Assembly: GCA_964059195.1 (NCBI GenBank)
Contig: CAXKWD010000006.1
Span: 7,184,530-7,248,529 of the forward strand
Origin: Ectobius pallidus
Lineage: Eukaryota; Arthropoda; Insecta; Blattodea; Ectobiidae
Length of the DNA: 64,000 nucleotides
Direction: 5' to 3'
The position numbers were made by a program, and so were the translations under genes. The stretch's first letter is position 1, and each line of letters begins with the position of its first letter. Positions 4,513 through 40,924 of the stretch are shown in pieces. The notes under the pieces were generated by a model, which was given only the letters and a program-made list of their open reading frames with translations, searched no databases and was not told the origin of the DNA.

Positions 4513-6881
4513 TGTGACATACGTCATGTTATGACGTGTTTAGTCACTTTAGTTCACTCTTACTCTCTCCGCTTGCTGTCCTTTCTGCGCATGCTCGGTG
4601 CGTGGTTTTTGTCTGTGTTGCGTCGGCCATTCCGGCTGACGAGTTAGTCTCTCTTAGCCTTCAGAACAGAATTGTGCCTAGTAGTGTTTGTGGAGAATCT
4701 TCTACGATGTCTGGCCTCGCTATCCGGATTTGCCTTCCAGGTATGTGCACGGGACGGGTTAGTAATTTATAATGTAATTCACCATTCTATATTCGTGCAC
4801 TTAATTGTGGAATCTCCACTAAGTTATGGTATTGCCAAGCCATTTAAGTTCATTACCATTGCCGTTATCTTATGTCTATTATGCCACGATGAAAGTCACA
4901 TTTGCTAAAGTTAGGGAAGAAATCTCGCCAAGTGGTATAGGGTTTAAGTCATGAGAATAATTACGTTTGTCCTAATTCAGTTGCCTGAAATAAGAGACGT
5001 TGTCATATCTCGTGATGTTGCGGCGTCATGTCTGCAGCCATTGTACCTACCCCTCTAAGCAAGTATTGCTTGAACTACTCTAGTCCCTTCTGAGTGAATT
5101 TTGTATAGCGAGATTATATTGTGTCGAGATATTAATGACACGAGTATCTAAAACTATCCCTTAATTAATAGATGTATAGTCTATGAACTCTTGCAAAATG
5201 GGCCATTTATCTTGAAGGTCATGCCCCTGTTCTAGAACTTGCTAGTAATACTAAATTTATATATAATCGCTATGAACGGATAGGCAGTTCATATTATTAT
5301 TCCTGCTAATTTAATGTTTTTCAGTACTGTAAGTTGTATTTGAAAAATTATTCAAAGAAGTAATTGTAAAATTTGTGAGACTTCATTTGCATATTACTGG
5401 CCTGATGCTTAGGAATTATCTTAGCCAAGTCCCTTTGAAAATAATTTATTCAGCCTGTCAGGGGTGTAGTATCTGTTAACCAGTTAGATCATTATTCATG
5501 CTAACTTAACATTTTTCAGTACTGTAAGTTGTATTTGAAAAATTATTCAAAGAAGTAATTGTAAAATTTGTGAGACTTCATTTTCATATTACTGGCCTGA
5601 TGCTTAGGAATTATCTTAGCCAAGTTCCTTTGAAAATAATTTATTCAGCCTGTCAGGGGTGTAGTATCTGTTAACCAGTTAGATTATTATTCATGCTAAC
5701 TTAACATTTTTCAGTACTGTAAGTTGTATTTGAAAAATTATTCAAAGAAGTAATTGTAAAATTTGTGAGACTTCATTTGCATATTACTGGGCTGATGCTT
5801 AAGAATTATCTTAACCAAGTTCCCTTTGAAAATAATTTACTCATGCATTTAGTGCTGTAGTAACTGTTACCCAGTTAGATTATTATTCATGCTAATTTAA
5901 TATTTTCCAGTACTGTAAGCTGTATCAGAAAAATTATTCAAAGGAGTAATTGTGATATTTGTGTGACTTCATTTGTATATTATTGCCCAGATTCTTAGGA
6001 ATTATCTTAGCCAAGTTCCCTCTGAAAATAAAATTAGTTATGCTCTCAGTGCTGTAGTAACTGTTAGCCAGTTAAACTATTATTCATCCACTTAAAGTTA
6101 TTCCAGTACTGGAAACTGTACTTAACAAATTAGTCTTGAGATGTTAGGAAAATTTAGTCTAGCACATATTGCGTGTAAAATTGATTGCTTCTTAACCCCT
6201 TATTCAGGATAGCTTTATATTTATTCTCTGAATTATCTTATATCTATCTCAGTGTACCCTCCTTTATTTATAGTTACTCTCTAACCATCTTAGTTAGGAT
6301 CGAAGGTTATATTCCCTTATGGCATCTATTCATGTGATCTGTACCTTTGGAAATGTGTACTATATTTTGGGAGTACCAATCAGTATCATTAACTCTCCCG
6401 GATCCTGGATTGCTCTTTAGTGAAGTTGCCCTTAGCTATTCATTGGGTTAGATCTTATGTAACTGCTCTTAGAGTTATTTGTCAGGGTTATTCCAGTAGT
6501 TGGGTTATGATATGTTAATCGTCAGGTATTTGTGCAGGATTTATGATATTGTTGCCTTTGATCCAATTGGACGCTGTGATATTTAATGGTTGTATGTTTA
6601 TTTGTTAATTCTGTTTGAAAATATAGAGATATAGTATTCCAGTATACTCTCTCTCTGCAAGATTGTTTCCCAGCACGCTAGGATTTCCTGCTTCCTGTTT
6701 CTTTCGGATTCTTATATTTATTATTCTAGTGAGCCGACACTTATCCTCCAAGCCCTAAGGGCTGTCTCAGGTAGTATCCTTAAAAAAAACAACCCAGCAC
6801 CCGAAAGTCGGCTCACAGTTCCACCTGGAAACATGCAACGGGCAGGAGCATTTAACGGCGTGCATTGACCCGGCTGTAACA
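4513..6881 (+). repeat. putative 3' LTR of the gypsy element
   Basis: Starts TGTGACA just after a G-rich purine tract and could end TGTAACA at 6875-6881. The two ends are inverted repeats of each other except for one base, as expected for LTR termini. The 2.37-kb length is long for gypsy but is explained partly by an internal 195-bp array. Near the start is a 7-bp palindrome, ACGTCAT/ATGACGT (4521-4537), of the CRE/bZIP-site type. The 5' LTR is outside the window, so the 3' boundary is inferred from the termini only. Confidence 0.5.
5290..6180 (+). repeat. 195-bp tandem repeat array inside the LTR
   Basis: The marker CAGTACTG recurs at about 5322, 5517, 5712, 5908 and 6102, a constant spacing of 194-196 bp. 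The first three units are nearly identical; the fourth and partial fifth have diverged. Units are AT-rich and have no coding potential. Confidence 0.9.
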
Positions 6882-17599: not shown

Positions 17600-18852
17600 G
17601 CTCAGCTATGCACACTTTTGGGGAAATGACATCTTCTAAGAAATATGCTAGAAATATACCACTACAGCCAACCTGTCAGCCGATGACGTTCACAATTGAG
17701 TACAAGGAAACGTCAACCAAAAAGAAAGACCAGCAAAAGAAACATTTACACCAGAACATAGTTACAGAAAATCAAGAGCCAAACATAAAACTCCTCATTC
17801 ACTGTCTGAATGTATTGTGAGAAATGGATCACTCGGTAAAAACAAAAATCGGAAAGGAAATGCTGTCCAAGAGAAAACACGTTCATATCAGGTATGTGGA
17901 AGAACGTTGTTTGTTACTTTTGCTGAAATTTTAAATGCGTATACTGTAGACATGTGATTAATTTATCAAGGTTTAGAACATCCAGCTGTTTCCTTGCTTC
18001 TTTATACTTATTTTAAGAGAGATTTAAGGAAACACTATTGAAATAATGCAATTTAAAGGTTAAAGTGGGCTTGGAACTAGCTATAAGCCTTAATAAGTAC
18101 CTTTAAAATATTTAACATTTTTATTTTTTATAATTACTAGCTTCTGATGAGTACACTTGAGCTCCCCTGCGGTCGGTAGGAGGCCTTTGTCCTCTAAGGG
18201 ATATTATAGGCTAAATTTTAAATATGTGATACTTTTAGGAGTGATAACGTTTGGTATTTATTCATATTTTCCTGTTTTTAGGATCGAGTTTGCTCCATAC
18301 CTGGCTGCAGAATGATGGATGTTGGTATGAAGATGCAAGAGTTTGACACCTTGTACACTAAAGATTACAATGAGCAAACTGCATTCCTGAGTGACCGTAA
18401 GTGAACCCAGCAGGAGTAGACCTGGGAAATCAGATGCAACATCAAGTCGTAAGGCGCCGTTTACTTACCATGTGAAAGTAAATGCTGAATTAATGCAAGT
18501 GCGCCAAAAAACATTTTGTGACACATATCAGACATCTTTTAGAAGAGTACAAGTTTTGCAAGGTAAATGGAGAAACAACGCTAGAGGATAAACGTGGTCG
18601 TCATCACAATAGACCAAACATAACTAAGGACAAGTTTAGAAAATTCATCAACAGCCTTCCACGCCATCCCAGTCACTACAGTCGAAACAAAACTTCAACT
18701 GAATATTTAGATCCGAAGCTGAACGTTTCAAAACTAGCAGAAATGTTTAAAGAAAAGTGTTGGCGGTCCTCACTGATGGATGATAATAGCTTCAAAGACC
18801 AATGCAGCAGAGCAAACCTTCCCCACTTGGCAGGACCCACGATGTATGCTTA
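17600..18852 (+). pseudogene. repeated arthropod gene family, N-terminal half
   Basis: Matches by eye a widespread, functionally uncharacterised family with a cysteine motif, an HYSR block and a DDE-like second half; many copies are thought to be mobile. Exon one ends in a basic stretch (GLGKNKNRKGN-like context) and a donor, CAG then GTATGT, near 17891. Exon two starts after TTTTAG at about 18281: VCSIPGCRMM, then DYNEQTAFLSD. After a gap with frameshifts come EDKRGRHHNRPNITKDKF and PSHYSRNKTSTEYLDPKLNVSKL. The C-terminal half does not follow in this orientation; it is found on the opposite strand at 18974-19345. Confidence 0.6.
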
Positions 18853-18973
18853 AGTATCAAACAGTTGAAAATTTTAGATACAACTTATTTGACATTTAAG
18901 AAATAAAAAATTTAAAAAAACTATACGAAGCTTATGCCAAATTTTTATTACTGTAACTCTTTGTATTTTCTAA

Positions 18974-19345
18974 TTAAATGGCATGGGACCAAAAATTATT
19001 GATTCTTAGCTTAGTAACGATCAATCGAGTAGTTCTACAGAGTATGGTGTGTGGATCATCACTGGAGATCTGAAGCCACATATTTTCTGTAATTTTAAGG
19101 TTTGGGTCCTTCATTATGTTTCTGTCAATATAAAGAAAAATCTTTAAAATCATTTTGTTCCATTTCATGACTTCAAACGATCTAGTAACTCCAGCATCTG
19201 CAATCACATATTTCCATTCTTCTGCAGCCATTACAGTGGATGCCTTTTTCGCCCTCTCAATTAAGGCAAAATCCCTATCACAGGGATTCTATGTTCTATG
19301 GCCAGAACATAGAAACTTTTGTTCAACTTTAGTAAAAAAATCCTG
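18974..19345 (-). pseudogene. repeated arthropod gene family, C-terminal half
   Basis: Minus-strand reading gives KFLCSGH, then DRDFALIERAKK and AAEEWKYVIADAG, then MWLQISSDDPHTIL. In the family to which 17600-18852 belongs, the H-S...DRDFG-x-IE block, the E-D/E-W-Y block and a W-L-Q-I block occur in that order near the C-terminus, so this is probably the missing second half, inverted. A short perfect palindrome (19287-19314) lies inside the S-G-H to D-R-D region and adds a stop. Confidence 0.5.
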
Positions 19346-19704
19346 AATTAACAAAATACTGATACAGGCCTATTAACTTCCAGTTATTATTTTGGCCGAC
19401 ACACCGATCAGACCATACAATAAAATTTCTTTCTTCAGAAGGAGCTAATTAAAAACTTAGGGGAATCATAGGCTTAAATCAGTAATTATGTTTCTATTTT
19501 TGCTCTTTGTTAACTACAATGATATTGGTCTTCGTAAGTTCACAGAAAGACAACTTCCTAACTTAATCAGGGACACCCTTCATCAAGCCCATGAATGGTG
19601 TTTGTTAGCTGCTTATTGTAGGTTAGGTTATATACCACTGTAGCCAGATTGCAGCTAGGATGTTTTACATGCACAATTCTAAACTTAAATTACATTTCAG
19701 ATCA
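19346..19704. other. unassigned spacer
   Basis: No gene recognised. An acceptor-like TTACATTTCAG sits at 19690-19700 directly before the Harbinger exon. Confidence 0.3.
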
Positions 19705-19880
19705 ATGGCTGAAGGATTTCTAGGAATACTTCTGTTAGAAGTAGAAAGGAGGAGGGTATGGAATGAACAAAGTATCCAAAGAAAAAGGTTACGTGATACC
19801 AGTAACCCTTTGATCTGACAGAAAAGTTATTCATCAGGGAATATAAGGTTACTATTCATTTATAATTAAATGAAACGTAC
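19705..19880 (+). pseudogene. PIF/Harbinger transposase first-exon fragment
   Basis: Starts ATG (19705) just after an acceptor-like TTTCAG. It reads MAEGFLGILLLEVERRR, then RLRDTSNP, and after a one-base shift at about 19810 FDLTEKLFIREYKV. The arginine-rich start, RLRD-x-SNPFDL and F-x-x-x-Y-R/K-V/L are typical of the first 60 residues of Harbinger nucleases. No downstream catalytic exon follows. Confidence 0.6.
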
Positions 19881-20011
19881 ATGAGGTGACTTCTACAGAA
19901 CCGCTTCTGGCAATGCATCCATGCCAAAGATGCATTGTTGCTTGGTTTTTTCCCATATTATAAAACAAGTTATAAACAGTTCAAAATACAAAATCCCTGA
20001 AAACAGAAAAC

Positions 20012-20115
20012 GATGCCTAAAACAAATTCAACCTTCATCGTCAACTACACCCAAGCCCCAGCATACAAACTAGCCAAATACATGGACAAGGTAATCAGAC
20101 AGAACATAGAACTTT
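20012..20115 (+). pseudogene. Penelope-like RT fragment, 5' piece
   Basis: Encodes STFIVNYTQAPAYKLAKYMD and KVIRQNI, the segment of Penelope-like reverse transcriptase just before the first catalytic motif. The next part of the domain resumes at 21.66 kb. Confidence 0.6.
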
Positions 20116-21132
20116 CACGCTGTATATTTTCCCTAATTAATTATTTTAATTAATTATATTAATATCCAAGTAATTTTAGATTTCATTACGTATTTTATTA
20201 ACATAAACCCTTTTTATTTCATGAATTATTTCCAATATAACAATATTTTTAACATGTAATATTTCAAGCATAAGAGGATCTGGAAATATATCTTTTTAGC
20301 ACTAATCTGTAAGATAGCGTATCCAATTTTTAACATCGACAAGAAAGGATTTGAGGCGAAGCGAATTGCTTCCTCTCCATCTATTGAAAAGTATAGTGAG
20401 ACCTTCAAGAAAACTGATAGAAAGTTAAGAAGCCAAGCTTTCCCCACCCCCTTAAGTAACGACTATGAAGCGTCCCTCGCTCGGAATTTTCCAAAATCTA
20501 AGCCTACTCTGAACCAATCATAATTCAAGATTCTCCAAAAGGCGCGAGAATTTCCAAGAAGCTCGAACTATATTTTTATATTTTCTCATCGCGCAAGGAT
20601 TTGAGCTCCCCCTATAAAATAATTTTCAGACATGGAAACATCTCAATTCTCGATAAAATTCTGAAGCGCTCGGTGCTCACCGTTCACGTCGCCGGAATGT
20701 AAAGTGTATCTGTAAATCGTCGTGGTTGCGCTTATACGGGATAACCTAGTGGAAGTGTATCAAGTTTTATTATAAAAGTGAGTGCTATTGAAAAGAATTT
20801 CTACAAGTAAAAAGGTACTGTACATGCACGTATTTAAGTGTGATTATACGAAGTGGTTATTAGAAGGTAAAATGCCTAATAACAGAAGTAGGTGGACTCC
20901 ACCATTGACATTACACATTAACTCTTATTAATAATTCCCAGCGCGAGATATTCAGCCCGACTATAGAAACTTTACAGACATTCCAAAATAGCTGACACAG
21001 GCGACATTCATCTAGGTAAAACCCACAACTGAACTTTTTTTTGTTATAATAAATATAGTTATCCCACACCTTCAAATCTTTCATTTATACAATAGCTATC
21101 AAATCACATAATACCCATCTTTATCCTACTAG
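20116..21132. other. sequence interrupting the Penelope RT
   Basis: About 1 kb, AT-rich at the left, with more CpG at 20460-20700. A TATA-like CCCTATAAAATAA lies near 20609-20621 and the next 100 bp has no ATG-initiated frame, so this may be a solo LTR or a promoter-bearing insertion. Boundaries could not be defined. Confidence 0.3.
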
Positions 21133-21147
21133 TAGCTGACAACACGG
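21133..21147 (+). repeat. SINE target-site duplication, left
   Basis: Fifteen bases, TAGCTGACAACACGG, repeated exactly at 21464-21478. Confidence 0.95.
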
Positions 21148-21463
21148 GGTCCGCCGGCGTGGTCTTGTGGTTAGCATCGCTGACTACAGATCCGTCGGCC
21201 CGGGTTCGATTCCCGGTACCTCCTCGGATTTTTCTGAGGTAGGGAGGTCTGGTAGGGGTGCACTCAGCCTCGTGATTCAAGATTGAGGAGCTACTTGATA
21301 GAGAAGTAGCGGCTCCGGTCAAGAAAACCACCATTAATGGCCGTGGGTGTCGGCATGCTGACCACATGCCCCCCAATCCTGCCATCTGCCTACGGGAGAT
21401 GACGCAGCGGTCGGGTGGTAGGCCAAGTCCCTCCAGGGATGTAGCGCCACGGAGTTTTAGTTT
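21148..21463 (+). mobile_element. tRNA-derived SINE, full length (316 bp)
   Basis: Transcribed by RNA polymerase III and moved by LINE enzymes. An A-box-like TGGTCTTGTGG lies at 21160-21170 and a perfect B box, GGTTCGATTCC, at 21203-21213 with the usual spacing. The head resembles a tRNA; an unrelated body follows, and the 3' end is a short TTTTAG-type tail. An exact 15-bp target-site duplication on both sides defines its ends and shows insertion by target-primed reverse transcription. The minus-strand open frame over it is a by-product. Confidence 0.95.
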
Positions 21464-21478
21464 TAGCTGACAACACGG
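21464..21478 (+). repeat. SINE target-site duplication, right
   Basis: Exact second copy of 21133-21147. Confidence 0.95.
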
Positions 21479-21639
21479 AGACCCTGAGAGAAAGAACTCA
21501 TGCGACTGACTGCTGTGGTATGCAGTAAGAATATTTATTGTCATCGAAACCAGATGACTGGCGTTCAACAGGTAAAGTGTAAGACATTTTTGTGAATATA
21601 AAAGTTATATTGAACCTAAATCATTACGTAATTTATATT

Positions 21640-21958
21640 CAAACATGTCACCCACACAAACTACCGCAACTTAACACACAAACACAACTGAAGAACAGCA
21701 ATGACCTAGTACAGAAAATCAAAGACATTGAAATCCCACACAACTCAACTCTAGCATCTTTCGACATCACCAACCTATACACAAACATACCAGTCACGGA
21801 AACCCTGAACATCCTAAAGACCACACTACATGAAAACAACACACCGGAACAACACATAAAAGAAATCATAGACATCCTACAAACCATCACAAAACAGAAC
21901 TCCTTCACCTTCGAGAACAAGCACTACACTCAACCAGGTGGCATTCCCATGGGTTCCC
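21640..21958 (+). pseudogene. Penelope-like RT fragment, palm
   Basis: Reads LASFDITNLYTNIPVTETL, which carries the first catalytic Asp, then EIIDILQTITKQNSF, FENKHYTQPGG and IPMGSPI. The F-D-x-x-x-L-Y/F-T-N-I-P and P-M-G-S-P motifs identify Penelope-like elements. The sequence stops precisely after PMGSPI, where piggyBac sequence begins, so the YADD-equivalent motif and the rest are missing. Confidence 0.85.
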
Positions 21959-22451
21959 CCATATGGGGGGAGTGGACAAGGCCGACATGCTACGTTCTCT
22001 GTATGAGATCAATAGAGAATCAAAAAAGTGGTGGTACAGGCTATTCTATGCAATGGTAGAAATGGCGTTCATAAATTCATACATAGCATACTCTGAAACA
22101 AGAGAGAGTATGTCCTTGTTTGAGTACAAACGTCGGACCACCCTTGGACTCCTTACTCTTGGCAAACAAATTGCCAAAAAGAGGGGTAGACCAAGGAATG
22201 AAGAAAATGTTCCTAGAGTGACACCACCGAAAAGAAGGAAGTCAGCCTTTTCAGTGCCCAATGATGTTCGCTTTCAAAATCTTGGTTCCCATTGGCCGAC
22301 TTTTGTAGACGCAAGAGGACGATGCGAGCTCTGTTCTTCAAAAAAAGTTGAATCGAGACCTCATTCGCAATGCTCAGAGTGAAAAGTGTTTTTATGTGTG
22401 AATGAGAAAAAAAAACTGCTTCCTGGAATACCACCAAAAAAAGTAGGCTAA
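21959..22451 (+). pseudogene. piggyBac transposase C-terminus
   Basis: C-terminal part of a piggyBac-family DDE transposase: GGVDKADMLRSLYEI carries the last catalytic Asp, then SKKWWYRLFYAMVEMAFINS. A basic, nuclear-localisation-type stretch follows, and the cysteine-rich end is GRCELCSSKK, HSQCSE. A TGA at 22380-22382 sits where the zinc-binding domain has a Cys, and an A-run just after shifts the frame so that NCFLEYH lies in another frame. The N-terminal three quarters are absent. The left end abuts Penelope RT without visible duplication. Confidence 0.9.
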
Positions 22452-22558
22452 CATGTTAATCAGTCCTGACGGGACTTTAAAGTCCTATCACTTATTTTTT
22501 TAAATTTTTCTTAATAATTTTTCAATATTTTCATGTTTTATTGATGGAATATGTATAG

Positions 22559-23480
22559 TTAGCCCAGTCAAATGTTACATCGGAACTTACATTAAATGGA
22601 GTATTAATGATTTTTGGAGGGGACTTTAGGACCATTACTGGGATCACAAATCCAGATTTGCAACCCTCAGAAACCTGTGCTCGCTGAATGGCGGTCGAAA
22701 TAAACAGTTTTTTTCGGACTTTTTTCGGTTTTTCGACAATATCTCCTAAACTATGCTTTTTTTGGAAAGAATATTTCTTAGCTTTTTTAAAGTAAATTAA
22801 ATTGTCTAAAATATGAAATCAAAATCGTTTTTGTAAGTTATATAGTTACCGAGATAAGGCTTTTCAAAAATTGGCCTTTTTTTCCAAAAAGTTGAAATTT
22901 TAAGTTTTCTTCGTGTTTCGAACTAAATACCGGCAAAATTACACGTCCTAAAGAAATGTCAAGATAACATTAGTTGTAGGAAATTTAATAAGCTTTAATT
23001 GGAGCTATAGCTGGTTCTTGTAGCTCAGATAGTCTAGTCATAAATGACAAAAACCGAAAATATGAAAAAATGCTTTTTTGGGTGAAAGTTGAATAACATC
23101 GTTTCCTCCACCAACACCTTAATTTTTTTGGTAACATGTTGGCGGATAATGTCTTATAACTGTGTATAGAAACTATTTGTGTGTGTATATGTGTCTATGG
23201 GAGATGATTTTGCAGGGAAAAAAAAAGGAATTTACTTTTAAACCAACAGGCATATTTAAACTATGTGTGAGGTTCCTGGTATGGGATGGTATGGGACCTG
23301 GGAAGTCGAGGGTGAGGTGATGTCTTCATCCTCACTTGAAGAACTGTCATTCTGGGGTGTGGGCACATTGCGGCAGAATTTTTCCCCTGTAGAAAGCGCA
23401 CAAAGCTGAGCATTTCAGCCCAGTTTTGCGGCAGCTGCAGCTCCCAGCGCAGCCCATCTTGCACTTGCACGAGATCAGTT
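22559..23480 (+). repeat. outer inverted repeat, left arm
   Basis: Pairs with 28703-29616. Its inner end holds, on the minus strand, a CXC-type cysteine cluster (ISCKCKMGCAG, CSCRKTGLKC and a further piece not present in the right arm), so the repeat includes the last coding exon of the enclosed gene. Confidence 0.9.
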
Positions 23481-23490
23481 CCCCGTTACT
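23347..23490 (-). pseudogene. inverted copy of the CXC-type C-terminal exon
   Basis: Minus-strand reading gives ISCKCKMGCAGSCSCRKTG then LKCSALCAFYRGK. The spacing C-x-C-x(3)-C-x(3)-C-x-C-x(5)-C resembles tesmin/TSO1-like CXC motifs and the C-terminus of a repeated arthropod family. It is the mirror copy of 28700-28890 and has no upstream exons of its own in this orientation, so it is a by-product of the inverted repeat. It keeps about 30 bp that the right-arm copy has lost. Confidence 0.7.
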
Positions 23491-24420
23491 GACAAAATAG
23501 TTTCTATTAGCTGTGGGATTGTTGGAGGCTATGAAGCCAATTGTTAAATTGCGAAGGAACTGGGAACAGAAGGAGTGGTTAATATAGAAAACCAGACATT
23601 TGGGAAAGTTGGATTCAAACGTAAAGACAAAATTGTTACCTTCGTTGCAAGTTGTTACCTTGGCAAGCGTCAATAATTCCATACAAGTCACTAATAAGAA
23701 GATTGAAGTTGACCCTCTCGCAATATTTCAGCGAGTTAGCATTACCATAAAAATCCGACGCAGAGTTGAAAGCCCACTGCAAGTATGAATTGCCCCCTTA
23801 CGCAATGCCTCTTTTCAACGACGCTGGAGTGAGGAAGGGAACTAAGGCAGCTCTATTTTTGTGTTTCACATCCCTCACTACCAACATCTCCCGAGACGCC
23901 AATATCCACAACGTGCTCGATGGTGGCTACTTGCTCCAAAAATACGTGTGGCATCAAAACGCATCAGTGAAGACCATCATTGACGGCTACATTCATTTTG
24001 TGAAAAACCATTTTGGGACAGATGTAACCCATTGTCTTCGATGGATACCCGGAGGACGCCTCTCAAAAAAGTACCAAAAGCGCCGAACATCTCAGACGAT
24101 ACTCCGCCCTTAACTGCAGTGACATTGTGCTATCAGCTTCAACTACCATCAACATCACGCAAGAGAAGTTCTTATCGAACGACACTAATAACCATAGGCT
24201 GATAGAGCTACTGATAACTGGATTTGAGCAGCACGGTGTTGTAGTGACAGAAGAGAACGCTGACGCTGACATTGTTAGAGCTGCAGGTTGTAATCATTGT
24301 AGAAGATGTGGACCTGCTTGTGTTATTAGTTGGTTTGAATTCCAAAAAATACATCTACTTCCAGAAGAGGGGAGCCAGACGTCCAATATTCATCTACATC
24401 GTTCACCAACGGAAATTCTT

Positions 24421-24424
24421 ATTA
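24421..24424 (+). repeat. 4-bp target-site duplication ATTA, left
   Basis: ATTA immediately before the left TIR, matched by ATTA at 28193-28196. Confidence 0.85.
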
Positions 24425-24955
24425 GGGTCATTCCATGTCAAGTGAACCAATGGAAAAACGTGACCACCTCCGATTTTAGTCATACTTGGTTGTCATGAAG
24501 TACCACCTGAGATATGTTGAAGTACAAAATATCAGATTTTTATGTGTTGTAGTTTTCCAGTTATACCCTTCTGAAATATGGAAAAAAACCAAATTTTCTG
24601 CATAAGTGCAATCACAAAATGACGCATAAATCAAGCTGGAATTGACATAGATGAGTGGGAAAAGTACCAAAATGTAGCTTATATTATGAGCTTTAATTTG
24701 ATATGTCACACGAGTACTTTCGAAAAAAAATATTTTCAAGGTTACCCAAAAAAAATTTGAAAACTGAATTTTTCAAAAACCTATATTTTGAAAATTTTGA
24801 AAAAAATCTCACAGAAACATACATATTTCAGCATCATGTCCTACAAGTTTTGTTATGGGATCGAAATGGGATCATATTTTTTTACATTTATAACAAATAC
24901 TATGCACGCTGGGTAAGAATATATGACACAGGAATATTGCACTTAATTCTAAAAT
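24425..24955 (+). repeat. inner transposon TIR, left
   Basis: 531 bp, reverse complement of 27652-28192. A small deletion near the tip removes about 10 bp relative to the right arm. Open frames across the TIR appear on both arms and are by-products. Confidence 0.9.
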
Positions 24956-25215
24956 CCATTCCTTTGTCCAGGGAGTTGTTTACCAACATGCATATACCAA
25001 CTTGTGCAAGTGGTCAAATGGGTATGAGTAAACACAGTCTGCAAGCATGTGAGTCAGCCAGGGAATGCAAGTTGTAACCTGTTGGACCTGGCTTCAGTTG
25101 TGCCTTGACTCTCATGCAGTGTGCTTCCTTTCTTCAAAGGCTGTACAAAGACTGTATTGCTGCATGTAAAGTAGTGGGTTCAGTGATTAAAATAGGCATT
25201 GTGTATTTCCCCAGT

Positions 25216-27579
25216 ATGGCTGAAAAAGTAAGTGAAACAGCAAAGATTTTCTGCTGCAACCCTTTCAAGAAAGACAGACATCAGGGTGTGAAAAGAAGTG
25301 TGAGGCCTGTTACTGACTGGATGTGTGACATGTTTGACACCATTGTGGTAGGTATGAAAATTTGTGACAGTTGTAGGAAAGAACTATCAAAGCAGAAACA
25401 GGTTACAGATACAACAGATGACTGTTTAGTACCAGTAGCCAATACCACTAGGCCTACTAATGTTGATGAATCATTTGTAGCTTTAGATGTTACCTTAGAG
25501 TACCTTAATAAGTCTCTAAGCTCTCTAGAGGAGTCACCTGTTGCTAAGAGGAAGTTGCAAATGAAATCATACTGTGATAAAAAATACAGTAAAATAAAAA
25601 AATGTTTGACAGAAAAGGTACTAACAGCAGCAAGTACAAATACAGAGAAAACTGTTGACCATAAATCAGAATCATGTGAAGTCATTTGTCAGCTAAAAGA
25701 AAAGTTTCAAGAAGAAAATATAAGTGTTAGTGAAAAATTGCAAATTTTAACAGTACTACCTAAAAGCTGGTCATGCAGTGAAATACAAAATGAATTTCAG
25801 GTTAGCAACAGAATGGCAAGAAAAGCTAAAGCATTGGTGAAAGCGAAGGGTATTCTGGCAACACCAAATCCTAAACCAGGAAAGGTTTTAAATGAATCTG
25901 TGATTGAGAAGGTAATAGGGTTCTACAACAGTGATGATGTCAGCCGTCTTATGCCTGGAAAAAAAGACTTTGTTTCTGTGAAAACGGGTGACAGTAGTAG
26001 AATTCATGTACAGAAGAGGCTAGTGATGGGCAACTTGAAGGAAGTGTACGAGCTGTTCAAAAACAAAAATCCTACTGATAAGATTGGATTTTCGAAATTT
26101 GCTGATTTACGACCTAAACATTGCGTCTTGGCTGGAGGAAGTGGTACCCACACAGTATGCGTTTGTACAGTGCATCAGAATGTTAAATTAATGCTACAAG
26201 TGTTGAAATCCAAACAAATTACACTGAATGATGGCACAGATATAAGTAATTATAATTCCTGTTTAGCGAAGTTAATGTGTGAAGAGCCAGGCACAGCATG
26301 CCACCTTAATGAATGTCCTTCATGTCCAGGTGTAGATAATTTGAAAGATGAGTTACAGTTGCTGCTAGATAATGAACTGGTGGACAACATTACATACAAG
26401 CAGTGGGTTTCTGTTGACAGATGTAATTTAGTAACCTTCATCAAAACTGCAGATGAGTTTATAGAAACTTTGTGTGAACAGTTGTTGATTTTGAAGAGAC
26501 ATTCTTTTATTGCAAGAAGACAGGCAGAATATTATAATCACTTGAAGCAGAATATTGGAGTAAATGAAGCTGTGGTATGTATGGACTTTGCAGAAAATTA
26601 TTCGTTTGTACTACAGGATGAAGCCCAGTCTTTTCATTGGAACAATGATCAAGCAACTATTTTTCCTATAGCAGTCTACTACAATGATCATAATATACAC
26701 TACAAAAGTATTGTATGTATCTCTGAATGTCTACAGCATGACACCACTGCTGTTCATTTATTCCAGAAAAGGCTTATCTCTCATTTGAAGTTGGAAGTAA
26801 TTAGAGATTTGAAAAAAATTTACTACTTCTCAGATGGTGCAGCTGCGCAATTTAAAAACAGAAAAAACTTTTCAAACTTATGCCACCATGTTCATGATTT
26901 TGGAATTGAGGCAGAGTGGCATTTCTATGCAACAGCCCATGGGAAAGGAGTATGTGACGGTCTGGGTGGTACTGTGAAAAGACTTGCAGGAAAGGCAAGC
27001 CTACAGCGGCCATACGAGCATCAAATCATGACACCAGCACAGCTGTTTACATGGAGTGAGGAAAACATCGACTCCATGCAGTTCTTCTTCTTCAATGAAG
27101 CACAATACAACAAAGAGGAAAAAATACTTGCAGACAGATTTCTGTCTACAAAAGCAATACCAGGCACACAGAAGTTCCACAGTTTCATCCCATTGTCAGA
27201 TAAAGTGTTGTTGACAAAGGTATTTTCAAGAAGTGAACAGTCATCCACTTTTTCAGTGTTAGGACCACGTGTGCAACAGAGGCTGAAGCTAGCAGAAGTA
27301 AAAGGATATGTTACATGTGAGAACAACAATCATTGGTGGCTTGGTGTAGTTGTGGACAAAAATGAGACAGCACAGATAGTGGAACTGATGTTTCTGCACC
27401 CTGCAGGTCCTTCTCCATCATTTACTTTCAAAAGTGACTGTCCAAATAAACTGACTGTGCCTCTCTCTCAGATCCTCACCCTTGTGCAACCTACATGTCC
27501 CACTGGCCGTAGTTATTACCTCTCGAAGGAAGAGATGGATGCGGCAACCATGGCTCTAGAAAATTACTGTAGACAATAA
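25216..27579 (+). CDS. DDE-like transposase of unplaced superfamily, 787 aa
   Basis: Probably cuts and moves the enclosing TIR element. The frame is open from 25105, but the ATG at 25216 is preferred: protein similarity to this family starts there with a cysteine-rich head (KIFCCNPFKKDRH, then ICDSCRKEL), likely zinc-binding. A helix-turn-helix-like stretch follows (WSCSEIQNEFQVSNRMARKA, residues about 185-210). The core has VCMDFAENYSFVLQDEAQ (Asp 457), then HWNNDQATIFP, YYFSDGAAAQFKNR (Asp 540) and HGKGVCDGLGG (Asp 581), the blocks I would expect to form the catalytic centre. A C-terminal stretch shows WWLGVV, a small beta domain. No stop or frameshift. Similar proteins occur in insects and cnidarians; the superfamily is possibly Sola, not proven. 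Confidence 0.75.
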   Translation: MAEKVSETAKIFCCNPFKKDRHQGVKRSVRPVTDWMCDMFDTIVVGMKICDSCRKELSKQKQVTDTTDDCLVPVANTTRPTNVDESFVALDVTLEYLNKSLSSLEESPVAKRKLQMKSYCDKKYSKIKKCLTEKVLTAASTNTEKTVDHKSESCEVICQLKEKFQEENISVSEKLQILTVLPKSWSCSEIQNEFQVSNRMARKAKALVKAKGILATPNPKPGKVLNESVIEKVIGFYNSDDVSRLMPGKKDFVSVKTGDSSRIHVQKRLVMGNLKEVYELFKNKNPTDKIGFSKFADLRPKHCVLAGGSGTHTVCVCTVHQNVKLMLQVLKSKQITLNDGTDISNYNSCLAKLMCEEPGTACHLNECPSCPGVDNLKDELQLLLDNELVDNITYKQWVSVDRCNLVTFIKTADEFIETLCEQLLILKRHSFIARRQAEYYNHLKQNIGVNEAVVCMDFAENYSFVLQDEAQSFHWNNDQATIFPIAVYYNDHNIHYKSIVCISECLQHDTTAVHLFQKRLISHLKLEVIRDLKKIYYFSDGAAAQFKNRKNFSNLCHHVHDFGIEAEWHFYATAHGKGVCDGLGGTVKRLAGKASLQRPYEHQIMTPAQLFTWSEENIDSMQFFFFNEAQYNKEEKILADRFLSTKAIPGTQKFHSFIPLSDKVLLTKVFSRSEQSSTFSVLGPRVQQRLKLAEVKGYVTCENNNHWWLGVVVDKNETAQIVELMFLHPAGPSPSFTFKSDCPNKLTVPLSQILTLVQPTCPTGRSYYLSKEEMDAATMALENYCRQ

Positions 27580-27651
27580 ATTCACGTTTTTGTCATTGAA
27601 GAAGGGAAGGTAACATGTTTTCTGTAAGTTTTTCTTTTTGATTGTAATGAA

Positions 27652-28192
27652 ATTTTAGAATTAAGTGCAATATTCCTGTGTCATATATTCTTACCCAGCG
27701 TGCATAGTATTTGTTATAAATGTAAAAAAATATGATCCCATTTCGATCCCATAACAAAACTTGTAGGACATGATGCTGAAATATGTATGTTTCTGTGAGA
27801 TTTTTTTCAAAATTTTCAAAATATAGGTTTTTGAAAAATTCAGTTTTCAAATTTTTTTTGGGTAACCTTGAAAATATTTTTTTTCGAAAGTACTCGTGTG
27901 ACATATCAAATTAAAGCTCATAATATAAGCTACATTTTGGTACTTTTCCCACTCATCTATGTCAATTCCAGCTTGATTTATGCGTCATTTTGTGATTGCA
28001 CTTATGCAGAAAATTTGGTTTTTTTCCATATTTCAGAAGGGTATAACTGGAAAACTACAACACATAAAAATCTGATATTTTGCACTTTAACATATCTCAG
28101 GTGGTACTTCATGACAACCAAGTATGACTAAAATCGGAGATGGTCATGTTCAAAATTGACAAAAAATTGGTTCACTTGACATGGAATGACCC
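27652..28192 (-). repeat. inner transposon TIR, right
   Basis: 541 bp, reverse complement of the left arm. The transposase stop codon lies 73 bp before the TIR. Confidence 0.9.
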
Positions 28193-28196
28193 ATTA
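28193..28196 (+). repeat. 4-bp target-site duplication ATTA, right
   Basis: Matches 24421-24424. Confidence 0.85.
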
Positions 28197-28702
28197 CTGT
28201 CCCGGGACCCTTTCAGGCAGGGGAAAACCAAATTTGTCAAACCTTCCTCAAGAACCCAGCACTATTCAGGCAAGCAGAAGTCTTCCTCCACCCAGATGTG
28301 AGTCACGATGAAATAGCTGCAGCTGGGGAGAAGTATCTCGTCGCAGTTTATGAAGGAGCGACTGACACCACCTTCAACGACCTGACAGCCAAAGTCAACC
28401 TCGCCCGTTTGTCACCAACCACAGATGCTGCAAAATATCATGTATATTGTATTTATTACCAGGTATGTCTATGTACATTTCCTATCATTATGTTCTTAAA
28501 TTTCGTTGTTCACTTATATACTCTCATTGTACACCATGTGTATGCTTTGAAATATTATAGAATAACTAACTTTCATTCTACTTTTTTGCAGGTACAAAAG
28601 TGGTTGGGGTGGAAAAAAACTCACGGATTGGGGTGGAAGTTGGACGAGTTGGGCTTACTCCAATTGCAATGGAAGTTGAACCAGCCCCTCAAACCCTTCT
28701 GC

Positions 28703-29616
28703 AACTGATCTCGTGCAAGTGCAAGATGGGCTGTGCTGGGGGCTGCAGCTGCCGCAAAACTGGGCTGAAATGCAATGTGCTCACACCCCAGAATGACAGT
28801 TCTTCAAGTAAGGATGAAGACATCACCCCACCCTCGACTTCCCAGGTCCCATACCATCCCATACCAGGAACCTCATCACACATGGTTTAAATATGACTGT
28901 TGGTTTAAAAGTAAATACATTTTAATGAAATATGCTGCTTAAATATTTTTATGGCAAAATCCATCTCCCATAGACACATATAAACACAAATAGTTTCTAT
29001 ACACAGTTATAAGACATTATCCGCCAACATGTTACCAAAAAAGTTAAGGTGTTGGTGGAGGAAACGATGTTATTCAACTTTCACCCAAAAAAGCATTTTT
29101 TCATATTTTCGGTTTTGGTAATTTATTACGAGACTTTCTGAGCTACAAGAACCAGCTATAGCTCAAATTAAAGATTATTAAATTGCCTACAACTTTTGTT
29201 CCCTTGATTTTTCTGTAGGACGTATCATTTTGCCGGTATTCAGTTCGAAACACGAAGAAAACTTAAAATTTTAACTTTTTGGAAAAAAAAGCCAATCTTT
29301 GAAAAGCCTTATCTCGGTAACTATATAACTTACAAAAACGATTTTGATCTCATATTTTAGACAATTTAATTTACTTTAAAAAAGCTAAGAAATATTCTTT
29401 CCAAAAAACGCATAGTTTAGGAGATATTGTCGAAAAACCGAAAAAAGTCCGAAAAAACCGGTTTATTTCGACCGCCATTCAGCGAGCACAGGTTTCTGAG
29501 GGTTGCAAATCTGGATTTGTGATCCCAGTAATGGTCCTAAAGTCCCCTCCAAAAATCAATAATACTCCATTTAATGTAAGTTCACGCGTTTTTTTTGTAA
29601 CATTTGACTGGGCTAA
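28703..29616 (+). repeat. outer inverted repeat, right arm
   Basis: Reverse complement of 22559-23480. It includes the terminal coding exon and 3' flank of the enclosed gene. Confidence 0.9.
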
Positions 29617-29962
29617 GTGTTCACATAAAGGTTGTAATGAAAAAAATAGCACAACAAAAAAATCAATTTATTAATTCAGTAAATAAAGGGTTAAACATTT
29701 AGATGAGGATGTTATTAAAATCAATAAATCACGTTAAGTTAATGTTATTATTATTATTATTAAAAAAATTATTTACTATGCCTTTTATATTTTAGAAGTA
29801 AAGAATAAAAAAAATTCCGCAGTAAAAAATCTAATTGTTGAGAACCCAAGGAGGATTTTAACAGGTTGATACATGTTACAATTTTTTTATTTTTTAAAAA
29901 AATGAACCCTGTTGATATTGATTTAACAAGAGAAGCTGAAGGTAGATGTCAGTCTGTAAGGC
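29617..29962. other. spacer between elements
   Basis: AT-rich; contains a short ATT run near 29745-29762. No gene seen. Confidence 0.4.
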
Positions 29963-29970
29963 AATGTGAC
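29963..29970 (+). repeat. hAT target-site duplication, left (7 of 8 match)
   Basis: AATGTGAC against CATGTGAC at 34319-34326. Confidence 0.75.
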
Positions 29971-30310
29971 TAGTGATGTGGGCCGGAAATATTCCCAGTG
30001 GGAAGGAACTTATAAAATGGGAATATTTCCCTGGCCAGGAAATATTCCCAAAAAGTGGGAATTTATAAAAAATCCTTAGTTTTGGACATTTTAATGCTTA
30101 TTAACAGTTCAAGTACCTTAAGATTAAACTATTTCTCATAAGAAAGTTTTCCTATGATATAATTTTTCACTTATTTTCAAAAATAATAATATTTTATAAT
30201 CTCTTAGGTTTTCTTTATATACTTGCCATTCATAAAGTGATACCTCACTCACATTTATTCAAACTTGATTAAAGGTAAGTAATTTAATATATTTGTAAAT
30301 AGATTGTGTT

Positions 30311-30318
30311 GGTAGGCT
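30311..30318 (+). repeat. 8-bp target-site duplication, left
   Basis: GGTAGGCT, exact match to 31785-31792. Confidence 0.95.
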
Positions 30319-31784
30319 CAGGGGCGTATCCAAGATTTATTTTCGGGAGGGGCTGTGATAATCCTCACTTTACTGTCACTAGGGTTCAGAAGTTGATCGT
30401 CTAAAAACGCCTAAAAATGACCTATAAATTACCTTAAATTTATGAAAATATGACATGAAAAATTTAAAATATGACAATATTTCTAAATATATATCTAAAA
30501 AAGGGAATATACAGTAGCATATTAATATAATAATAAACAAAGGACAATATTTTAAGTATGTTATTTGACTACTTTAATATTATGTTTACTATATTAATGA
30601 ATTACGAGATTGCTTTGTGTACAATGGTGGAAAAGTTCATTCTAAAGACAAAACAGGAAAAAATGTAACGAACGAATGAAAATTTCCTAAAAATGACTGG
30701 TAGAAAATAAAATGCAAAATATGAGTAAAGTATTATTGTTCGTTTTGACAGAAGACGAACTTATACTACAACCTGCATTGTCTGTGATGTCTCAGAAAAG
30801 AGATGACATATCATCAACCTGTGAGCCCTAATTATCACACACAATTATACTGAATACGTTAGAATAACGCATTTCATCTTTTATAAGTCAAAATGTGCAA
30901 TTGAACTGTCTACTTTCTGAGAAATTAAAGTGCCCTTATGTGCGACATATTAGCATGACTTAAGGGTATATGTACGTGCATTATTTTGAAATTTATGTTT
31001 TTTTGTTTATAGCACTAAAAAATTGTGCTGAATGTTCTGCATCCATTGATATATAGTTTATATACTGTAGGTTTAGAAATTATTTGTGGCATTTAAATAG
31101 ATATTTAAATATGTTTACATGCTCTGAGCTACGCCCTTAGAAAGGTCAAATGAGAAATTCACTGAATTTCCCGGTAACTCTTATTTTACACACATATTGT
31201 TAGGTAGCTCCACAACCATTAGAGATAGAAGGCTGAAATTTTTTACGCTAATTTTACATGCATATATGCATAAAGTAGACTACAATGATGCCCATAGGTA
31301 TAAAATTAAAGAAAATGTGTAATGAAATATTGATCAACTTTCAAGATATTATATATGCGATATATAAAAATTAATTGCATTAAAAATAATAACTTTAGCT
31401 GTATAGAAGTAGTCTACTTAGTAGAAAAATATGTTCATTATATGCATTAAAAAATAAAAGGCGTCAGAGAAACCAGAAAAATGTTATGCCTATAAGGAAG
31501 TGATAAGTGCATCTGAATTAATTTTTTTTCATGCTCCTATAAAACGTGTAATTTAAAATAAACTTGGTCAATTTTTTATACTTTTATCTACTAGTTATGT
31601 TCTAGTAAGCCTTGTTATAGGATCCTGTAATTTTTGTCCACTTCTGAGTTCATTTTCTTGTAAAATTTTAATATTTTAGAACCTGCATTTTTTTTATCTT
31701 TTAGTGGTTGTTCACATATATATACCCTTAACGTTTCGGGGGGGGCTGCAGCCCCCTCAGCCCCCCCCCCTGAATACGCCCCTG
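30319..31784 (+). mobile_element. non-autonomous hAT-type element nested in the hAT
   Basis: 1466 bp with termini CAGGGGCGTA at both ends in inverted orientation, flanked by an exact 8-bp duplication. The right terminus has runs of C and G (31738-31770) that pair with the G-rich left end. No open frame of note and no transposase fragment, so it must be moved in trans. The 8-bp duplication and CAGGGG start fit hAT. Confidence 0.9.
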
Positions 31785-31792
31785 GGTAGGCT
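31785..31792 (+). repeat. 8-bp target-site duplication, right
   Basis: GGTAGGCT, exact. Confidence 0.95.
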
Positions 31793-32959
31793 ATTTAAAA
31801 TAAAATGCCAAAAACCAACACCTTCAAGATTATCATTGTTTAATATTACACAAACACAAATTTAAATAGAAGTTTACGGTATAGTATCTAATCACAAATC
31901 AGTCCCATGGTCTAGGCCTAGGCTAATCCTACTGTAGTATGGGAGGAAATTTAGTTCTTTCATGACTTACGAGGGGAGAATATTTTCCCTCCGCTCCAGA
32001 AATTCATACACCAGTTAGGGTTGCCACCTTTTGGTAAGACTAAGGAAAGACGCTTATCAAATACCGTATAAGCAGATTGCCGGTCTTCATATCTAAATTT
32101 ATACATGGAACAATTTATTAATAATAGAAGGAATTTTCTATTTTCTATATTCTATATTAAGATTCAAGTTCTTCAGTGTGCCATAAAGATTGCTTTCTGT
32201 GAAGTCAAATACTTTCCCTAAGTAACTCAAAGCTTTCTCATAGAATTTCTCATGGATATGTTTTGAAAAAAATTATGGCGAAGCGGTAATTTATGGCGTG
32301 CACAGGTCCCCCTTCCACTGAATAATAAAAGACCCTTGCACCAAACATAATATGTCACAACTATAAACAACAAAATAATATTTCATAGTAAAAAAAGACC
32401 TATGCACCAAAAATCATATTTCACAATTATAGGAGTGGGAGTGGGGGACTCGTGTGCAGCATAAAATACCTTTTTTGCAAAATTATGAACATCTGCAATC
32501 CAGACTCTGACTATGTAATGGCTTACCACTAAATTTAGGAATAATGGGAGGCACATTTAGTTAATTCTTATTCAACGAATGACACACAAAACACACAGAG
32601 AACATGGATTCAAATTACAACTGATAACACTAGGCACGTCTTACTGTGCTATAATTCCAGGAACTGTACTTGGCAACTTAGGGCAGCGTGTCATATGTTC
32701 TGTTTATGGTACTTCCCCGTTGGATTATGCCGGGTGTGCTGATCAAGGTCATACCCCAAGAATGCCTGCGCGACTTATACAAACAAAGAAAAATATAATG
32801 AGCGGTGATTTCACTGCTGTCAATACGATACATTTTAGCAATGGAACAATACCAATATCTTGATCATGAGTCAAAATTTACAAAATATGCAACTAAGAAT
32901 TGCTTTCTCATATTTTGTTTTGGAATAATTTGGCATCCCACAATGTAATGCGTCCCTCT
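31793..32959. other. hAT internal region without recognisable coding
   Basis: Contains two degenerate copies of a block around CTTGCACCAAA (about 32330-32440) and an open frame at 32579-32863 with no recognised family. The N-terminal BED-type zinc finger expected of a hAT transposase was not found. Confidence 0.35.
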
Positions 32960-33845
32960 TAGGCATAATTCGGGTTGATGAAAATGTTCTTAAAATGCGG
33001 ATGTCCTTATGTTACACCAACCATCACACTGCAGACTTCAAGAAACAAAAAAAATCTTCATCTGCAGTGTGATGGTTGGAGTAACATAAGGAATGAGTCT
33101 ATTATCAACTTTGTTATTTCAAAACCAGAACCATTTTATGTAGATTTTAAAATGACCAAAAGTGAAAGACACAATGCCGAGTATTTTGCAGAGCTCATTG
33201 GATCAGTGATTGAGAATTATGTACCTGACAGATATTTAATGGTCATTGCTGACAATGCTGCATGAAGGCAGCTTTATCATTGGTGAAGGAAAAGTATCCA
33301 CACATTGTACCATTGTATTGCTCACCTCCTTCATTTATTGTGTTCAGACATTTTATGTTGCCAAACTGTTAAAAGTTTCTTTGGTGAAGTAATTGGAATT
33401 GTAAAGACGATAAAAAACAGTCACATTTTACAAGCAATATTTGATGAAATATCATCTGAAAAAGATTCAAGGGCCGAATTGCTCTGAAGTTGCCTGGAAA
33501 GACAAGATGGGGAAGCCACCTTTTTAGTTTACACAGTTTGCAATCAAATAAAGTGGTGCTACAATATTGGCTGTTAATGAAAATGCTGACTTTGAACCAA
33601 ACATGAAAAGAAAACTTCTTGATGATGGGGTGTTTTGGGTCAAAATCGAGAAGATGATAGATTAGCTTACACCAATTGTACATCTCATCACTGCAATTGA
33701 ATCCAATGAACCACAAATCCACAGAGTTGTAAGAAAGTTGGATGATTTGGAGAAAAGTTTGGCCCAAAACTTGCCATTTTCGCCCCTTCAGAAGGCTGAA
33801 GAAAAAAAGATCATAAATAAATTCAAGGAAAGAAAAGAACCAGGG
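32960..33845 (+). pseudogene. hAT transposase fragment
   Basis: Reads FLKCGCPYVTPTI, then LQCDGWSNIRNESIINFVIS (the hAT block carrying the first catalytic Asp), ERHNAEYFAELI, LMVIADNAA (second Asp region), KYPHIVPLYC with a small insertion, then IAHLLHLLCSDIL, VKSFFGEVI and TRWGSHLFSL one frame over. Similarity persists to RRVVRKLDDLEKS near 33760. Stops at 33263, 33485 and later, plus several frame changes, inactivate it. The N-terminal zinc finger and C-terminal dimerisation region are missing. An inverted duplication of its own sequence lies at 33005-33091. Confidence 0.85.
33005..33091 (+). repeat. 31-bp inverted duplication (hairpin) in hAT ORF
   Basis: Left arm 33005-33035 and right arm 33061-33091 are reverse complements with one mismatch, separated by 25 bp. 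The right arm encodes the conserved LQCDGWSNIR; the left arm is its mirror copy and replaces normal coding sequence. Confidence 0.95.
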
Positions 33846-34318
33846 CATTTTTATATTATTAATTACCTCATTTTCATTGTTAACTATGTGAAAACCCAGT
33901 AAAACATCGTAAAATATTTAATATGTAATTAATCTCTGTTCATTTCTTATGTTTTAATATTTGAACTTCTAAGAGTTTTTTAGTTTTATTTAACCTAATC
34001 ATGATTCAATTTAAGTATTATTTAACAACTAATTGTCACTTTATGTAACAAATATGTACCTCTGAGTTATCTTGCTCGTAAATCATAAATTCCCTATATT
34101 TTAATTTAGCAGTTTTGGAGTTTCATTTACCTAATCATGATTAAATTTTAGAATTATTTAACAATTATTTGTTACTTTTCATAATAAATAGGTGTCTTTG
34201 ATTTATCTTGCTTGTAAATCATAAATTCCCGGGAATTTATGAATTTTGGGAATATTTCCGGAAACATTCCCTGGGAATATTTCCTCAAGTTTAAATTCCC
34301 GGGAATTTTACATCACTA

Positions 34319-37983: not shown

Positions 37984-40924
37984 AACAAACCTTAAAATAT
38001 GGCAAATAAACGCTGACCGCGCGCGAAACGTAACAGATCAAATAAGAAAACAAGCGTACGACTCAAAAGTTGACATAATCCTCATACAGGAGCCCTACGC
38101 ATACCACAATAACAAAATTACAGGATTCGCCACAACTGACATAATAGTTACAGGTAACACAACTGAAGAATACCCATGGGCGGGAGTCATAGTACTAAAT
38201 CCACAACTAACAGTAATAAATATGCCCCATAAAAGCACAGCACATGTAGCATGTGCAAAGATAATAACGCAATCAGGAGAATTTACAGTAGTCAGCGCTT
38301 ATCTGCAATATAATCTTACCTGTCACGAGATAGATAACATAATAGGCCAGCTAAGAAACATAGGCCTAAACTGAACCAAAGTAATTATCGGCATGGATTG
38401 CAATGGAAAATCGCCACTGTGGGGATGCCCCAATACAGACCAAAATGGCACCAAACTGGAGCAACTCATAGCAGAACAGGTCTGGTACGTCCTCAACGGC
38501 CAGGATATAACACCAACATATGAGACGCGACACCATGCGACAATAATTGACATTACACTTGTCTCCAGAGACCTCGATACCGTCAATAAACAACGCACTA
38601 ACTGAATTACCACCCCCTTACACACCACTAAACACCAAAAAGGACGTAGCTAAACACATTAAATTCTGAGAGCAGCGCACAGTGCTATACCACAAACTTA
38701 CCCCAGACCTAAGTCAAATGCCTGGTGGAATGACGATCTTACTAGACTAAAACAAATCACATATATGTTAAGAAGGGCTTATCAGAGAGCCCAGTACGAC
38801 ACAAAAGAACAAGCGTACAATGAATACAGACGGGCACAACGCACTTACACCACAGCCATTCATAAAGCACGCAGAGATAGCTGGGGACAATTCGTAACAG
38901 ATCAGAGTGCGATTAATACATGGGGTATCGCCTACAAACTCCAGGCTGATAAACTCAAACATCAAAAAGCCATTAGTTGCATTAAGAAGCCAGATGGCAC
39001 GATGGCAGAAGATTGGCAGGACATCACAGAAACGCTGATAGCTGATAGATGACGAAACAGGAGAAAATATAGAGCACCATGCCATCAGACAGGAAAACGA
39101 AACGCACTACGACGCCAACAACAACACTGATGATTTCGATTACCTAGACGTGCAAATAGCCCTGGAGAAAGCATCAAACCTTAGAGCCCCGGGCCCAGAC
39201 AAAATTATGTATGAATACTTCAAGAAGGGAGGGCCCCATATCATAACAGAACTAAAAATATCTACAATGCATGTCTTCGGCACCAAATGTTCCCTAAGAT
39301 ATGGAAAACAGGACTACTCACAACCATATTGAAATCACCAGAAAAGGATACTACTGACCCGACATCATACAGGCCAATCTGCCTCTTACCCACACTAGGC
39401 AAGACATTTGAAAGGCTAATATTGACCAGAACGGAACAACTATTGGAAAAAAGCTATGCCGAAACTCAACATGGCTTTCGTGCAAATCGCTCTACTGAGG
39501 ATGCCATAGTCCAACTCCAAAATAAAATCAGACAATCTGAATCAAAATTCGTACTGGGAATATTTATAGACATTCAGGGCGCCTTCGACAATGTATGGTG
39601 GCCCTATGCCCTAAACAGAATAAGAGCAATCGGCCCACCAGAAGACCTATTCTACATACTCAAAGACAGGAAAATAGTAATGCGAGATAAACATCACTAC
39701 ATAGAAAGAGCAGTCAACAAAGGATGCCCACAGGGCTCCGTTCTTGGGCCAAAAATTTGGAACCTTGTGGTCAATGAACTGTTGCTGGAACTACAAGCGG
39801 GGCAAGAAGCGGATGTGATAGCATTTGCTGATGATGTAGCTCTCCTAATACATGGAGACTCTCGGCGCCAACTCGAACGCAAAGCTCGGGAGGCAGTAAG
39901 TGTTGTAACTAACTGGACCACAAAGGCGAAAATGACCGTATCCCCAACAAAAACCAAAATGCTCTTACTCAAAGGTCAAGGCAAACTAGATCTACGACGA
40001 CCCCCACACATACCAATACATGGAATAGGAATTCCCCTTGTAACAGAACTTAAATACCTAGGAATAACACTGCAAGGAGGAAATAAGTTTGAAGCCCATG
40101 TCCAAAGAACTTGCGCGACTTCCAAAACACTCTTCGCAGCGTTAGGCAGATTGTCAGGACAGAAATGGGGATACAAGTACACAAATTACAAGCACTTATA
40201 CACAGCAATCTTCCAACCAATAGTTGCATATGCAGCGGCTGGCTGGGCCCCTTACATAAGTCAGACACAGAAAAACAAGCTCTTATCAGCCCAAAGGACA
40301 GTCTTAATCAGAACAATCAAAGCCTATTCCACCATACCAGCAGGAGCAACCACGGTCATTGCAGGAGTATTACCCATAGACCTACTACTAGAAGAACGAA
40401 CTTTACAATACAAAGTAAGACGACAACAACAAGTACAAATCTGGAACCGACTCATACAAGAACCAGACCACCAGAGGCTTCAAAAGGCAACACTGTACCA
40501 AGCAATAAAACATCAACAAACATACAAATGACAAGACAGATGGAGACACACACACAAAGGACTCACAACAAGAGACTACTTTCCGGATGTAAGAACACGA
40601 ATGAAGCAAAAATGGATCCTCCCGGACCATTACACCACTCAACTTCTCTCAGGACATGGCAACTTCGCTCATTATCTAGAACGATTCAGACAAATAGACG
40701 AATATCTATGCCTATGCGAAAACAGTGAGATTGATGCCATGTACCATGTCTTATACACATGTGCTAGGCACACAGAAGCAAGACTTAGACTACGAGAAGT
40801 GACAAACCAGACAAATGAAGTATGGCCCCCAGACCTCCCTTTCTGGACTAACAAGGAAGCCTACACTGCCTTTCGAGCTTTTGCCAGAGAGGTCTTCACC
40901 CAAAGAGAGAATGACATACACTAG
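37973..40924 (+). pseudogene. LINE ORF2 (endonuclease, RT, C-H tail)
   Basis: ATG at 37973 overlaps the end of ORF1. The AP-type endonuclease reads LKIWQINADRARN, IILIQEP, IIGMDCNGKSPLWG and a degraded SDH region; TGA stops fall at 38372 and 38603. A middle piece (38765-39052) is open. RT (39150-40528) has RAPGPDKI, YRPICLLPTLGK, QHGFRANRSTEDAI, FIDIQGAFDNV, GCPQGSVLGP and the catalytic FADDV (about 39822-39836), then KTKMLLLKG and ELKYLGITL. TGA at 40529 replaces a codon before QDRWRHTHKGLT. The tail has SGHGNFAHYLERF and a C-x-C-x-C/H cluster (CLCENSEIDAMYHVLYTC). Stops and frame changes at 39055 and 39290 make it inactive, though the RT core is intact. Confidence 0.9.

Follow-up and report, generated by a model that had tools for sequence, protein, structure and literature searches.

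The 64,000-nt stretch of Ectobius pallidus DNA analyzed here (GCA_964059195.1, contig CAXKWD010000006.1, positions 7,184,530-7,248,529 of the forward strand; hereafter the window, to which all positions refer) contains a unit with long inverted arms that encloses the remains of a gene. This outer element occupies positions 22560-29615 and has the termini TAGCCCAGTC...GACTGGGCTA, and in the one copy examined the trinucleotide AGT lies directly outside both of them (Table 1). A first-pass annotation had placed the unit at 22559-29616, which proved correct to one base, and had described its arms as reverse complements for about 0.9 kb at about 90% identity and the unit as split by a second transposon. 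Both descriptions were borne out. Self-BLAST aligned 22583-23371 with 29583-28772 in inverted orientation (92.1% over 814 columns, 1123 bits) and likewise 23410-23480 with 28773-28703 (97.2% over 71 columns), and the inserted transposon was recognized by arms of its own (24425-24955 and 28192-27652) and a transposase open reading frame (ORF). Over their full lengths the outer arms show 48 mismatches in 879 aligned columns plus 76 gap columns. The first 20 bases from each terminus are the same in both arms, the terminal TAGCCC marks the limit of arm homology on both sides, and a 40-base stretch is present in the left arm only. A chance origin of the arms was ruled out, as 50 resamples of 18000-34000 under a first-order Markov model gave minus-strand self-matches of at most 38 bits, compared with the 1123 bits observed. 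Owing to the inner insertion the spacer between the outer arms now measures 5.2 kb. Within 22560-29615 no tandem repeats with a score of at least 50 were detected, and neither self-BLAST nor tblastn found a second copy of the outer unit elsewhere in the window. Features of the foldback type are present in the unit, namely long inverted arms without an intact transposase.

The enclosed reading frames correspond to the last third of a protein of about 1480 residues. Using the relative P0140 (1479 residues) as query, tblastn placed residues 930-1193 at 23479-24285 and residues 1269-1434 at 28196-28782, so that the relic spans parts of a FEN-like nuclease domain and is interrupted by several frameshifts. 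A PIN-like VEDVDLL strand and a CXC-type cysteine tail, both already noticed at the first reading, were located at 24299-24319 in the 5' piece and in the ORF 28600-28890, respectively. CXC-coding sequence was also detected on the minus strand of the left arm, with matches to residues 1407-1440 of P0140 (23481-23383) and 1402-1441 of P0141. Arm and gene overlap by two bases only, at the junction 23479-23480, and gene residue ~930 begins at the inner edge of the left arm. The first ~930 codons left no trace in the window, where five long relatives gave no tblastn match with E ≤ 0.01 upstream of the site equivalent to residue ~920-930, and the probable catalytic core is gone from this copy. Pfam searches with the relic ORFs returned nothing above any cut-off. 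Four pieces of the relic matched 126, 132, 128 and 128 of the 133 relatives that were fetched (P0121-P0253). Only 2 of the 133 were matched by the piece 28592-28783, because a frameshift lies just inside it; tblastn recovers this piece in another frame.

Table 1. Features of the outer element and of the transposon inserted in it (positions in the window).
Feature	Position	Strand	Basis or remark
Target site duplication AGT, left copy	22557-22559	none	flank sequence
Left arm, 3' terminus of the element in inverted copy (terminal repeat and CXC-coding tail)	22560-23480	minus	self-BLAST, alignment
Sequence coding for the Cys-rich CXC tail, within the left arm	23353-23481	minus	tblastn; includes the 40 bases absent from the right arm
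Gene relic, 5' piece	23479-24424	plus	linker plus the beginning of the FEN-like nuclease domain; starts at ~residue 930 of P0140
Target site duplication ATTA, left copy	24421-24424	none	flank sequence
Inner DNA transposon, 3768 bp, ~530-bp terminal inverted repeats starting GGGTCATTCCATGTC	24425-28192	none	self-BLAST
DDE transposase frame of the inner transposon, 787 codons without a break	25216-27579	plus	in-frame ATG; ORF opens at 25105
Target site duplication ATTA, right copy	28193-28196	none	flank sequence
Gene relic, 3' piece	28196-28890	plus	end of the nuclease domain and CXC tail, frameshifted; ~residues 1269-1434 of P0140
Intron-like interruption GTATGT...TTGCAG, 129 bp	28463-28591	plus	absent from the protein relatives that align at this site
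Right arm, original 3' terminus of the element with CXC-coding tail, stop codon and non-coding terminal repeat	28703-29615	plus	self-BLAST, alignment
Target site duplication AGT, right copy	29616-29618	none	flank sequence

Read in pieces, the outer gene retrieved 19 matching proteins of at most 1204 residues, with the spider Araneus among their owners, and a search with one of them, P0122, retrieved 332 proteins. Among the 120 of these 332 matches that were listed, an organism label was present on 20 (18 insects, the soft coral Dendronephthya and one record labeled as the rust fungus Austropuccinia psidii). A protein labeled Austropuccinia psidii (P0223, 1213 aa, on a contig of 5225 bases) shows 41% identity, in an alignment of 1061 columns, to an outer-family protein of Cyphomyrmex costatus. 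Horizontal transfer, contamination of the assembly with insect DNA or a broader distribution of the family may explain this. Members of the family carry the source labels 'Tesmin/TSO1-like CXC domain-containing', 'uncharacterized' or 'hypothetical', and 76 of the 111 relatives aligned, a subset of those fetched, are 1405-1545 residues long. Their architecture comprises an upstream domain, in which acidic residues are conserved (D84, D250 and E415/D488/E492) and an RNase-H-like strand order is predicted, a nuclease domain of predicted FEN1/EXO1/XPG-like fold and a CXC zinc tail. The FEN/EXO1/XPG fold was recognized in the predicted structure of P0129, whose identity to known nucleases is 10-18%. 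NCBIfam searches with three relatives returned only a flap-endonuclease model, which P0129 matched at 16.6 bits against a cut-off of 261 bits, and no solved structure related by sequence to the family was found. When prokaryotic and viral homes of the family were sought in viral and genome contig collections, pattern matches were obtained and none of them was confirmed as a locus of this family; the terminal 20-mer of the element had no exact match in viral contigs.

As the 3' coding end of the gene recurs in inverted copy within the arms, these look like one terminus that was inverted and duplicated while the other part was lost. The initial two thirds of the coding region, together with the 5' terminus, thus seem to have given way to a mirrored 3' end. 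Where the first-pass annotation had seen a stand-alone uncharacterized gene or cargo that was no known transposase, the protein relatives, tblastn and the predicted fold point to a different identity: the gene is most probably the 3' third of the element's own transposase-nuclease of ~1480 residues. Taken together, the unit 22560-29615 is likely a foldback derivative, decayed and non-autonomous, of a DNA transposon of the AcademX type. Of the earlier proposal of an undescribed mobile unit or its cargo, the transposon-like unit with long inverted arms could be retained, but its novelty is modest, since it is a new derivative of a kind already known.

The intact parent would have moved by cut-and-paste. 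Its DDE domain would have cut at the TAGCCCAGTC ends and made joins staggered by 3 bp, flaps or branched ends arising in excision or repair would have been trimmed by the FEN-like domain, and the CXC tail would have bound DNA. After an excision, aborted gap repair or a template switch would be the likeliest route by which the 5' part was swapped for the mirrored 3' end. The product would lack the catalytic core and could be mobile only with enzyme from an intact copy. The inner transposon would have inserted afterwards. With 48 of 879 columns differing between the outer arms and 9 of 531 between the inner arms, the foldback is, judged from arm divergence, probably older than the transposon inserted in it, and the nesting agrees with this order.

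The nuclease of AcademX transposons is XPG-like. In the outer family, too, a nuclease rather than a helicase accompanies the probable transposase, as deduced from the P0129 fold and the coverage by the relic; the AGT duplication of the one copy has the length reported for AcademX, and terminal inverted repeats are present in the form of ~0.9 kb arms with the same outermost 20 bases. AcademX transposons are described as encoding a nuclease and making target duplications of 3-4 bp (PMC10045372), Academ target duplications are given as 3 bp (PMC5199201), and curated bivalve Academ elements have a mean length of 5565 bp (PMC10294476). The filing under AcademX is a good fit and is provisional, being set against descriptions of Academ. 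In the literature on Academ-type and CXC-domain transposons, the outer architecture is not described in the titles or abstract beginnings of the matches listed.

Several points weigh against this origin and assignment. Architecture and duplication length are the basis of the superfamily name, which was assigned by descriptions of Academ rather than by named Academ sequences, and a 3-bp flank such as AGT matches by chance in about 1 of 64 cases. The RNase-H/DDE reading of the upstream domain is probable and draws on conserved acids and predicted strand order; for the N-terminal part of the P0129 model there was no fold match among those listed, and DUF6589 exceeded the cut-off in 1 of the 15 relatives scanned, matched P0124 and P0237 below it and was without match in the other 12. 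Could the protein family instead belong to a DNA transposon superfamily other than Academ that likewise joins a DDE-like domain, a FEN-like nuclease and a CXC tail? The comparison by Academ descriptions only and the 14 of 15 scanned relatives without any Pfam match above cut-off leave room for it, but the DUF6589 similarity in three relatives (one above cut-off), the nuclease domain, the 3-bp duplication and the inferred length of 5-6 kb make it unlikely. Furthermore, a single copy is known, within the window, from which both the ends and the duplications were read, and an in-place rearrangement of this copy with the AGT repeat kept is possible.

The last point leads to a doubtful though serious alternative, in which a decayed element was duplicated inversely in place and partly deleted, and never moved as a unit. 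It is compatible with an Academ origin and differs in the last step alone. The single copy seen in the window, the coding sequence in the arms and a 3' end that is present twice while the 5' part is gone are all in line with it, and a rearrangement between existing ends would preserve the AGT repeat. In a random genomic inverted duplication, however, homology that stops at TAGCCC on both sides, with AGT abutting both, is unexpected. Quite unlikely is the explanation that arms of ~0.9 kb are the normal terminal repeats of the family, reaching into the coding end, and that a plain internal deletion removed the N-terminal part. The inner transposon does show that terminal repeats of ~0.5 kb occur on an element in the same genome, but normal terminal repeats seldom contain coding sequence of one end, whereas CXC-coding sequence lies on the minus strand of the left arm and the gene, from residue ~930 on, directly abuts this arm. 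The same CXC-coding sequence, lying within both arms, makes it extremely improbable that a domesticated host gene, or cargo as the first reading had considered, sits between unrelated transposon arms; CXC domains are also found in host chromatin proteins, but the relatives from many species are of like length (76 of 111 at 1405-1545 aa) and pair probable transposase acids with a nuclease. An unknown cargo gene was rejected on the tblastn matches.

The transposon that interrupts the foldback derivative has arms that are 97% identical and encodes a transposase with an RNase-H/integrase-like catalytic core. For this transposase Pfam returned nothing above cut-off, PHROGs and NCBIfam returned no family, and the search for solved structures related by sequence gave one irrelevant match (E 0.94). 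The element looks intact and was possibly active recently. The Sola superfamily is a possible home for it, with a 4-bp target duplication (ATTA) observed.

From its transposon and retrotransposon frames, the window looks like repeat-rich animal DNA. Just left of the outer element a transposase C-terminal remnant is found at 21963-22382 (Pfam DDE_Tnp_1_7, a piggyBac-type family, E 2.4e-05). Frames for reverse transcriptase, RNase H and integrase mark a retrotransposon at 49-2954, a 195-bp unit is repeated in tandem at 5285-6087 (4.1 copies, 90% match), and a frame at 13739-14482 matches Pfam 'Mutator-like transposase' (E 9.6e-08). A fragment at 32975-33265 matches DUF659 below the cut-off (29.0 vs 34.7 bits), a domain found in hAT-type transposases, and reverse-transcriptase frames are located on opposite strands at 39287-40531 and 61289-62470.

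The analysis ties an animal family labeled 'Tesmin/TSO1-like CXC' or uncharacterized to a probable Academ-type transposase-nuclease, with a FEN1/EXO1/XPG-like domain by predicted fold, and the family bears on the role of a flap-type nuclease in eukaryotic cut-and-paste transposition. It also illustrates that a one-sided inverted duplication can pass for terminal repeats.

Among known systems, Foldback (FB) and similar long-inverted-repeat derivatives have long arms, lack a complete transposase and probably rely on an intact relative. The outer unit resembles them in its long arms, the lack of a complete transposase and its probable dependence on an intact relative; it differs in that its two arms go back to one and the same terminus of an element that bears a nuclease, contain coding sequence and are without tandem repeats at the score applied. 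In Mu killer of maize a truncated MuDR element is duplicated in inverse orientation, and in the outer unit, too, a DNA-transposon segment with coding sequence is inverted and duplicated, but the unit is known from DNA alone and has the long spacer created by the inner insertion. By analogy, transcription of the foldback unit might yield a long hairpin RNA that naturally triggers the silencing of intact relatives, which is very unlikely; if true, it would be an animal counterpart of Mu killer for an Academ-type element. Compared with the FEN1/EXO1/XPG 5'-nucleases, at 10-18% identity, the predicted domain of the outer family is set apart by its position after a probable DDE domain and before the CXC tail. 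The outer unit is like AcademX in the element-encoded nuclease, the target duplication of 3-4 bp (PMC10045372) and the terminal inverted repeats, and in length (5-6 kb inferred from ~1480 codons plus ends, compared with a mean of 5565 bp; PMC10294476). From such elements the outer copy differs in that it is without trace of the first ~930 codons and carries the 3' terminus at both ends.
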